A DNA stretch of 32,601 nucleotides from the NCBI GenBank assembly GCA_003171035.1, contig PMXR01000072.1:1-32601 (forward strand), written 5' to 3'. The stretch comes from Chloroflexota bacterium (lineage in GTDB: Bacteria > Chloroflexota > Limnocylindria > Limnocylindrales > CSP1-4). The notes under the pieces are model-generated. The model was not told the origin of the DNA and made no database searches. It was given only the letters and a program-made list of their open reading frames with translations. Made by a program: the position numbers and the translations under genes. Below, in pieces: positions 19,792-22,744 of the stretch; position 1 is the first letter of the stretch; every line of letters starts with the position of its first letter.

Positions 19792-21060
19792 TCAGCGGCT
19801 CCCTGCTGCGGTTGGTAGTTGGCTGCGGTTTCCGTATGAGGGCCCGGCGCTCCGGCCGGAATGCGACCACGATCGCCCGCCCCGGGATCGCTCGGCCGCT
19901 ACCGGCTCGCGACTCGGATCGGGCAGGTATTCCTCGACGACTTCGCATGGGATCGACTTGCGAAGCAGGCGCTGGACCGCGCGCAGCTCCTCGACTTCCT
20001 CGGGCGAGACCAATGAGATCGCGGTTCCACTCAGACCGGCGCGAGCGGTTCGGCCGATACGGTGGATGTAGTCCTGCGGCTCGTACGGCAGTTCGAAGTT
20101 GACGACGTAGGGCAGGTCGGCGATGTCCAGACCGCGCGACGCCACGTCGGTTGCGACCAGGACCTTGACGAAATGGCCTCGGAAAGCCTCGAGGGCTCGA
20201 GTCCGCTCCGCCTGGCTGCGGTCACCGTGGATGGCCGAGCAGCTCACACCGCGCCGGTCCAGGTACGAGGCCAGACGGCTCGCCCCGAGCTTGCTGCGGG
20301 TGAAGACCAGGACCTGGTCCATGGAGTCGCGCCTGATCAAGTGGATCAGCAGATCGGCCTTGCGATCCTGGTCGACCGGGTAGAGGACCTGGGTCAGGTT
20401 GTCGGCGATGCTGTTCCGGGCGGCAACCTCGACGGTCTCGGGGTTGCGCAGGAACTCACCGGCGAGGCGCCGGATCTCGTCCGAGAACGTGGCCGAGAAG
20501 AGAAGGGTCTGGCGTTGTGCCGGCATGAGGGCCACGATCTTGCGGACGTCGGGAATGAAACCCATGTCCAGCATCCGATCGCCCTCGTCCAGGACGAGGA
20601 TCTCGACCTGCGAGAGGTTCACGGTGCGCTGACCGATATGGTCGAGCAGGCGGCCGGGAGTGGCGACGAGGATCTCGACGCCGCGCCAGAGGATCTTGAT
20701 CTCGGGGTCGATCCGTGTGCCGCCGTAGACGACGGTGGATCGGAGCGGGATGCCCCGGCTGTATGTCTTGACGGCCTCGCTGACCTGGACCGCGAGCTCG
20801 CGGGTGGGGGTCAGGATGAGAAACCGCACGGGGTGACGGGCCGGCGAGAAGCCGTTGTTGGCCTGGCCTCGAAGCCGTTCCAACGCCGGGAGAACGAATG
20901 CGGCCGTCTTGCCGGTGCCCGTCTGGGCTGCGGCCAGGACATCGCGTCCGGCCAGGATCAGTGGGATAGCCGAGCTCTGAACCGGCGTCGGCTCCGTATA
21001 TCCCTCTCGCGCCACTGTGGCGAGAAGGTCGGCCGATAGGCCGAGTTCGTCGAAAGTCAA
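19792..21060 (-). CDS. DEAD-box ATP-dependent RNA helicase
   Basis: Q-motif (LTFDELGL...YTEPTPVQ), AAQTGTGKT, PTRELA, VLDEGDRMLD (DEGD variant), SATF, HRIGRTAR; AGGAG SD 7 nt before TTG at 21060. Confidence 0.95.
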   Translation of the reverse strand: MTFDELGLSADLLATVAREGYTEPTPVQSSAIPLILAGRDVLAAAQTGTGKTAAFVLPALERLRGQANNGFSPARHPVRFLILTPTRELAVQVSEAVKTYSRGIPLRSTVVYGGTRIDPEIKILWRGVEILVATPGRLLDHIGQRTVNLSQVEILVLDEGDRMLDMGFIPDVRKIVALMPAQRQTLLFSATFSDEIRRLAGEFLRNPETVEVAARNSIADNLTQVLYPVDQDRKADLLIHLIRRDSMDQVLVFTRSKLGASRLASYLDRRGVSCSAIHGDRSQAERTRALEAFRGHFVKVLVATDVASRGLDIADLPYVVNFELPYEPQDYIHRIGRTARAGLSGTAISLVSPEEVEELRAVQRLLRKSIPCEVVEEYLPDPSREPVAAERSRGGRSWSHSGRSAGPSYGNRSQLPTAAGSR

Positions 21061-21268
21061 ACCATTACTCCTGAGGGCGCCAACTTGGCGCGGAACCGGT
21101 CGGGTCGGGCGGGACGGTTTGGGTCCTGCGCGCACGAAGCGATCGGTGATGTGGTGCCGGCACCCGCGTGGCGTGCCGACTGCAGACGCCGCTGCATTAC
21201 GAAATTGCGATTGACCGAATCATGGTACCACCCGTCCGACCTTGCCCAGAGGGCTTGGCGGGGGCGGT

Positions 21269-22441
21269 TCATGCAGTGACGGCCGCGAACCTGCGAGGTG
21301 AACGGGCGGCTAACGCTGCGGCTTGGCTCGTGGCGCGCTCGAATATGGTCCTGTACTTGCTGCCGACTTCCCACCACACCATGCCCCGGCTGCGCTCGTA
21401 GGTCTTGAGACCCATCGAGGCCCGGAGCTCCGGGTCGTTCAGTAGCTCGATCAGCTGGGTGGCAAACGCACTCGAGGACCCGGGCTGGACGATGCGGCCG
21501 CACTCGACGGTCAGCATCTCCCGGGCGTACGCGTACGGGGTCGAAACAATCGGCTTGCCGGCCGCCATCGCGAACGAGAGCGTCGCGGCCTGGGTCCGAT
21601 CGAGGTCCGGATAGGGAGTTGTGATCACGTCCGCGGCCTCGAGCCAGTTGCCCAATTCCACTCGGCCGACGAAGCGGTCCACGAACTTGACGTTCTGAGT
21701 CATCCCGAGCGCTGCCACGCGCGCCTCGAGGCGAGCCCGGTAGGCCTCGCCGTCGCGAGTCTTGAGATTCGGTTCGGTGGCGCCGAGGATCACGTAGCAC
21801 GCCGTTGGTACGGCGGCGACGACCGCGGGCATGGCGTCGATGATTATTTCGCAACCCTTGCCCGGGCTGAGCAGCCCGAAACTGAGGATCACCGCGCGAC
21901 CCTGAAGGCCGAGGCGCGGCTTGATCGTGTCGGCCGCGACCTGGGGAAGGTGCGGCACGCCGTGCGGCACGATGTCGAGTCGATCGGCGGGGATCCCGTA
22001 CGACCGCGCCATTTCCTCGGCGGCGGAGCGCGACATGACTATCGTCGCCGCTGCGCTGTCGACCAGTTCCATCATGTTGGAACGCTGGATTTCGGTCGGC
22101 TTGGCCGGTACCTCGTGAAGCGTCACGACCATCGGGACCCGCAGGGTCCTGGCGAAGTCCAGAACGTAAGCCCCGTCGTCGCCGCCCCAGACGCCGGACC
22201 CGCTCTGAACGCTGACCACATCCACGCCGCAGTCGTTGAGGGCCTGCGCAACGTAGGGATAGTCGGCCTGGACGTCGCGCCGGATTCGATGGCGCACTTC
22301 TGCCGGATAGGGCCCGATCTCACCGGCTGGATGGACGGCCACGATCTCCCGCTCACCGACCGTCGTGGCCAGATCGTACGTGAATGTGGCAATCCCGCAC
22401 TGTCGTGGGGAGTAGGTTGAGACGAAGGCCGTCCTCGAGAT
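21269..22441 (-). CDS. GT4-family glycosyltransferase; start codon uncertain (first ATG/GTG/TTG-type start is GTG 22342, homology-like frame continues to about 22441)
   Basis: IVPHGVP, LSFGLLSPGKGCEIIIDAMP, VKFVDRFV, ADVITTPYPD. Same frame upstream reads ISRTAFVSTYSPRQCGIATFTYDLATTVGEREIVAVHPAGEIG, typical N-terminus of this family. Confidence 0.88.
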   Translation of the reverse strand: MSRTAFVSTYSPRQCGIATFTYDLATTVGEREIVAVHPAGEIGPYPAEVRHRIRRDVQADYPYVAQALNDCGVDVVSVQSGSGVWGGDDGAYVLDFARTLRVPMVVTLHEVPAKPTEIQRSNMMELVDSAAATIVMSRSAAEEMARSYGIPADRLDIVPHGVPHLPQVAADTIKPRLGLQGRAVILSFGLLSPGKGCEIIIDAMPAVVAAVPTACYVILGATEPNLKTRDGEAYRARLEARVAALGMTQNVKFVDRFVGRVELGNWLEAADVITTPYPDLDRTQAATLSFAMAAGKPIVSTPYAYAREMLTVECGRIVQPGSSSAFATQLIELLNDPELRASMGLKTYERSRGMVWWEVGSKYRTIFERATSQAAALAARSPRRFAAVTA

Positions 22442-22540
22442 GAGGTAACTCCTGTCAGATTGCGAAGCACGCCGCGCAATGTGCGTGACGGCGATGCGCG
22501 GCCCGAGGCGCGAACGCTCCGGGCCGCGATGGCCTTTGGA

Positions 22541-22744
22541 CTACGCCGCGGACACCTGCACGGCGCGAGGGCCCTTGGGGCTGGTCTCGACTTCGAACGA
22601 AACGCGCTCGCCGCCGGCGAGGCGATCGAAATCGAGGGGAGCGACGAGGCCGCCGCGGTGGAAGAAGTATTCCTTGCCGTCTTCGGCGGCAATGAATCCG
22701 AAGCCGCGATCGGCTACGACCTTCTTGATGGTTCCTGTGGTCAT
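22541..22744 (-). CDS. Cold-shock protein (CspA family)
   Basis: MTTGTIKKVVADRGFGFIAAEDGKEYFFHRGGL (RNP1 GFGFI, RNP2 YFFHRG). Confidence 0.96.
   Translation of the reverse strand: MTTGTIKKVVADRGFGFIAAEDGKEYFFHRGGLVAPLDFDRLAGGERVSFEVETSPKGPRAVQVSAA

Follow-up and report, generated by a model that had tools for sequence, protein, structure and literature searches.

Where does translation of a gene begin when its conserved N-terminal region contains no ATG, GTG or TTG codon? This question is raised by a glycosyltransferase gene of the GT4 group that lies in the window, that is, in the whole stretch of 32,601 nucleotides analyzed here. The window belongs to a Chloroflexota genome of 2.9 Mb (145 contigs, 79% complete), whose nearest named relatives are fen-derived genomes of uncultured 'Chloroflexi bacterium'. 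Apart from infC, not many bacterial genes are known in which selection maintains a near-cognate start codon. Near-cognate starts are misplaced by gene finders, and GT4 enzymes of the kind described here are likely to be annotated without an essential N-terminus.

The GT4 start region in the window

The first-pass annotation had pointed out that no ATG, GTG or TTG lies in frame upstream of the GTG at 22342, and that an AGGAG at 22453-22449 is followed, after 7 nt, by an ATC codon at 22441-22439. A codon-by-codon check of the GT4 frame, which is open from the stop codon of the upstream cold-shock gene (TAG, 22543-22541) onward, bore out the first statement from this TAG down; the second was exact to the base. 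The elements of the start region are the following.

21269..22441, minus strand: gene of the GT4 glycosyltransferase, 390 codons and a stop (Pfam, AlphaFold2 and PDB fold matches)
22439..22441, minus strand: ATC, proposed start codon of GT4, where coding-type conservation sets in (46 related loci have AUH, none ATG)
22449..22453, minus strand: Shine-Dalgarno sequence AGGAG, 7 nt 5' of ATC (equivalent motif in 43 of the 46 AUH loci)
22340..22342, minus strand: GTG that a gene finder would pick as start, rejected (residue 34, in predicted beta-2; preceding codons under strong purifying selection)

The product is a predicted GT4 glycosyltransferase of GT-B fold. It contains the Pfam domains Glyco_trans_1_4, Glycos_transf_1 and Glyco_transf_4, and its AlphaFold2 model (mean pLDDT 89) had PimB', MshA, HepE and similar proteins as nearest solved structures in a Foldseek search of the PDB, so that both the fold and the sequence domains of the group are present. 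In a search of the NCBIfam equivalogs, none reached its cut-off.

A non-ATG start codon conserved among relatives

Relatives were collected within the genus, across the family and among named genomes, and the start region could be read in 85 distinct GT4 genes. An alignment of orthologues at the start, which had been proposed along with the annotation, showed ATC in 19 and ATT in 1 of the 20 same-genus orthologues. All 20 thus had an AUH codon (AUC, AUU or AUA), in a set that was not selected on this property. At the same codon, 41 loci of one Chloroflexota family, a set partly chosen by AUH state, had ATC (35 loci), ATT (5) or ATA (1), and in 5 additional loci of the family the ATC or ATT lay a codon farther into the gene. 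Altogether, 46 AUH loci were found, from 12 genera of this family and one named genome, and ATG occurred in none of them. A motif of AGGAG, GGAG or AGGA type preceded the AUH codon in 43 of the 46, at a spacing of 6 to 8 nt.

When the genes were placed on a tree, two exceptions only were found outside a clade of ATG paralogues: L128 (ATG) and L146 (ACG), the codons in brackets standing at the start position or beside it. ATG starts were encountered in nested sister paralogues, carried by the same genomes as the AUH GT4 genes, which shows that genes closely akin to GT4 are routinely started from ATG in these bacteria. Two characters of infC-type near-cognate start genes were found at GT4, namely an AUH codon behind a Shine-Dalgarno sequence with no usable canonical start, and a non-AUG state kept across relatives (46 loci, none with ATG).

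Where coding begins

In the codon columns of the genus alignment, the differences are nearly all synonymous from the AUH codon onward, whereas upstream of it the amino acids are scattered and few differences are synonymous. When the window was compared with nine orthologues, pN was 0 to 0.043 and pS 0.38 to 0.65 over codons -3 to 28; over the 20 codons upstream, pN rose to 0.41 to 0.67, approximately equal to pS. From this comparison we conclude that translation of GT4 almost certainly starts at AUC 22441-22439, in which case the expected N-terminal peptide would be (M)SRTAFVSTYSPR. The rare ATC start that had been offered as one option is thus supported by a conserved AUH codon, a Shine-Dalgarno sequence and a coding boundary in dozens of genomes.

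Four other accounts of the start were considered. A longer protein could be made from an upstream start, or by a prfB-like programmed frameshift from an upstream frame; the +1 frame of the window is indeed open upstream and contains a canonical start, and an in-frame canonical codon is present farther upstream in 19 of the 46 AUH loci, presumably by chance. We nevertheless hold this to be very improbable. The length and frame of the leader vary, the changes in spacing between the Shine-Dalgarno sequence and the AUH codon (6 to 8 nt among loci) shift the upstream frame, and locus L010 has an in-frame TAA two codons 5' of its ATC. In 27 of the 46 loci no in-frame canonical start exists upstream, and in 12 there is none in any frame open to the AUH codon. 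For those 12 loci, both the upstream start and the frameshift are removed, and a conserved upstream frame entering GT4, as in prfB, was not found. A terminator-like hairpin between the cold-shock gene and GT4 (see below) also argues against such a leader.

Initiation at the codon just before ATC (CTC, CTG, TTC or others), for which the CTG found there in L010 and L023 could be cited, has an equally slight chance of being correct, as this codon varies freely (CTC, TTC, CCC, GCC, GAG, GGA) and the AUH codon does not. Initiation at GTG 22342, the first canonical codon in frame, would imply that the frame upstream is open by chance, but the codons preceding GTG are under the strong purifying selection documented above. 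In the AlphaFold2 model, GTG corresponds to residue 34, within beta-2 (residues 31-37). A protein starting there would be predicted to lose its first beta-alpha unit, made of beta-1 (residues 4-9), the conserved loop and alpha-1 (residues 20-28), along with the invariant residues P12, R13, C15, G16 and A18-T21, and this start is excluded in practice. Finally, loss of an ATG by a recent substitution or by a sequencing or assembly error, the other option of the first-pass annotation, might be suspected in a window taken from a single genome that is 79% complete and in 145 contigs, but it is excluded because 46 loci, for the most part from separate assemblies, share the non-ATG start.

Is ATG avoided or is AUC tolerated?

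If the third base of the start codon were free to vary, ATG should be found in many loci. In the same 46 sequences, G was present in 141 of 142 four-fold degenerate columns, with a mean fraction of 0.37, and the absence of ATG is therefore unlikely to result from drift. The avoidance is specific to GT4, since the csp cold-shock genes found at AUH loci have canonical starts (ATG 24, GTG 10, TTG 1). Some caution is called for, as the sequences are related and as their internal isoleucine codons are mostly ATC too (706 of 777), although at the initiator position the codon does not specify isoleucine. By this comparison, the GT4 start codon has probably been selected against ATG.

Alternatively, the AUC start could be real but just tolerated, a weak start being sufficient, with no regulation involved, for an enzyme in low demand. 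The cold-shock gene is missing at some AUH loci, and ATG has arisen in nested paralogue clades, as this alternative would allow. However, a single mutation separates ATC from ATG, and with G so frequent at free third positions ATG should not be missing from all 46 loci. We consider mere tolerance rather unlikely.

The csp gene, the hairpin and the helicase gene

Three neighboring elements were examined in connection with the AUC start.

22541..22744, minus strand: csp, upstream cold-shock protein gene, ATG start (Pfam CSD)
22498..22527, minus strand: terminator-like hairpin between csp and GT4 (folds in the window; compensated pairs across loci)
19792..21060, minus strand: downstream DEAD-box RNA helicase gene (Pfam DEAD and Helicase_C)

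A csp gene lies directly upstream of GT4 on the same strand in the window and in 34 of the 45 evaluable AUH loci, compared to 1 of 22 ATG paralogues; the two labels are phylogenetically clustered, and the Fisher value for this contrast therefore has descriptive meaning only. As csp is absent upstream in 11 of the 45 loci, its linkage cannot wholly explain the codon. The intervening hairpin is backed by 6 compensated pairs across 14 loci, and a T-rich stretch follows on its 3' side in L029, L144 and L157, hence our designation of it as terminator-like. In L157, just 69 nt separate the csp stop from the GT4 start. No match to the csp-GT4 region was found in Rfam. Another hairpin, which holds the AUC in its loop (CCUC-AUCUC-GAGG), is part of the centroid structure of the window but is not kept across the genus, and was discarded.

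The arrangement of the genes suggests that GT4 may depend in part on read-through from csp. Csp proteins are known to alter terminator read-through in Escherichia coli and Bacillus subtilis, in opposite directions (PMC8307031). Downstream, a DEAD-box helicase gene is found within 2.7 kb of GT4 in 18 of the 20 same-genus loci. On its 5' side in the window (21057-21065, minus strand), an AGGAG precedes ATG GTT TGA, a frame of two codons that overlaps the presumed TTG start of the helicase at 21060.

A proposed weak, IF3-sensitive initiation

The explanation that we consider probable as a whole combines an AUC start, an ordinary tRNA, and a codon kept for weak, IF3-sensitive output. The AGGAG would position the ribosome at AUC, where the ordinary initiator tRNA (anticodon CAU) would mispair at the third codon base only. 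AUC, AUU and AUA would be retained by selection because near-cognate codons start weakly and IF3 discriminates against them. The enzyme would then be made at a low, IF3-sensitive rate despite its position directly behind csp, a gene that is probably strongly expressed.

The initiator tRNA gene found in the source genome is normal, with a C1-A72 mismatch and a GGG/CCC anticodon stem, which speaks against an altered initiator tRNA, though a genome 79% complete may have an additional one. The simplest reading is therefore that fMet-tRNA would pair with two of the three bases of AUC, assisted by the Shine-Dalgarno sequence. The infC genes of the source genome (L197) and of its genus (L198-L212) start with ATT or ATC, which is the known pattern of IF3 autoregulation.

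Work in other bacteria gives an idea of the expected effect. IF3 excludes weak third-base pairs (PMC10158994); the AUU and AUC starts of infC are autoregulated, being repressed by IF3, and the GTC start of sigR is IF3-repressed in Streptomyces (PMC5472188). In Staphylococcus aureus, AUU and AUA starts yield about 10% of the output of AUG, and ccpN up to 30% in rich medium (PMC13009471). By analogy, a low initiation rate and a sensitivity to IF3 would be expected for GT4, and throttling may be of some benefit. We give about even credence to an IF3-sensitive throttling of GT4 as such.

Other near-cognate starts in the lineage

The start codons of a congener, G002, were screened over 1.14 Mb (about 850 genes) by counting codons at Shine-Dalgarno distance near the onset of coding. 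This screen misses genes with a chance canonical codon upstream, the GT4 of G002 itself among them. ATG was enriched 18-fold, TTG 7.7-fold and GTG 3.8-fold, and no enrichment was seen in G002 for CTG (0.62-fold), ATC (0.50-fold) or ATT (0.57-fold). This rules out a generally relaxed use of start codons, and near-cognate starts are therefore rare exceptions. The screen also caught what is apparently the known prfB recoding site. It led to two further conserved cases and a third, probable one.

L267:17178-17846 (G002), with L306-L326 (G000 copy, L313): lspA, CTG start by orthologue comparison
L180:5640-6665 (G002), with L244-L263: ROK-family kinase (Pfam ROK), CTG start by orthologue comparison
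L302:18458-19639 (G002), with L327-L347 (G000 copy, L338): recF-like gene, following the dnaN stop

The lspA-like gene, named from its sequence as a signal peptidase II gene, has the CTG start in 21 of 21 genus genomes, and a TAA immediately precedes the CTG in L307, L308, L317 and L318. For the ROK kinase, CTG was found in 20 of 20 orthologues, behind an SD-like GAGG, and in six loci a stop closes the frame a few codons before the CTG. The recF-like gene probably uses an AUH start, judging from the TAGGAG-6 nt-AUH arrangement present in 17 of 20 genus genomes; the exact codon is uncertain, a second candidate lying nearer the conserved core, and across the wider family the motif used left most recF starts unplaced.

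Two more observations were made. For a gene resembling UbiA-type prenyltransferases (L296:6185-7033, minus strand, in G002; L348-L368), many genomes of the genus show no clear canonical start; it may use a near-cognate codon, a frameshift or some other device. At L226:1501-1576 (G000), a tRNA-Ile is encoded whose anticodon is UAU; such a tRNA is unusual in bacteria, where AUA is normally read by a modified CAU anticodon.

It is tempting, if speculative, to view infC, the csp-linked GT4, recF, lspA and the ROK sugar kinase as an IF3-controlled regulon that this lineage keeps on near-cognate starts; we regard this as doubtful. If such were the case, the level or fidelity of IF3 would tune envelope, sugar and repair functions jointly, and more genes might be included.

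Comparison with known near-cognate start systems

What the GT4 case offers is family-wide conservation, an in-genome ATG paralogue as a control, and two to three extra conserved cases. Whether weak start codons form a regulatory class in bacteria thereby becomes directly testable by comparison.

The closest parallel is infC, whose AUU, AUC or AUA start, autoregulated by IF3, shares with GT4 a conserved AUH codon behind an SD-like sequence. The product of GT4, however, is a glycosyltransferase, and there can hence be no feedback loop through IF3 itself. In ccpN (AUA) of Staphylococcus and Bacillus, and in staphylococcal cvfC1 (AUU), a near-cognate start and a strong Shine-Dalgarno sequence are conserved among species, as in GT4 (PMC13009471); these starts were demonstrated by Ribo-Ret and reporters, whereas that of GT4 is proposed from sequence comparison. 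Streptomyces sigR is another case, outside infC, of a conserved non-canonical start, for which gene finders took a nearby canonical codon instead (PMC5472188). It differs from GT4 in its codon (GTC), in its product (a sigma factor) and in that repression by IF3 was demonstrated experimentally.

Two further parallels are enzyme genes, according to the parts of the sources drawn on here. Borrelia pncA (AUU; PMC13398362) was annotated without its essential N-terminus, as is likely for GT4, and the output of E. coli pcnB (AUU; cited in PMC13009471) is limited by its inefficient start. Those parts describe for pncA and pcnB neither a family-wide comparison nor a linkage to csp, in which they differ from GT4. 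GT4 thus joins the small known class of near-cognate start genes (infC, pcnB, ccpN, sigR), within which its conservation is unusually deep.
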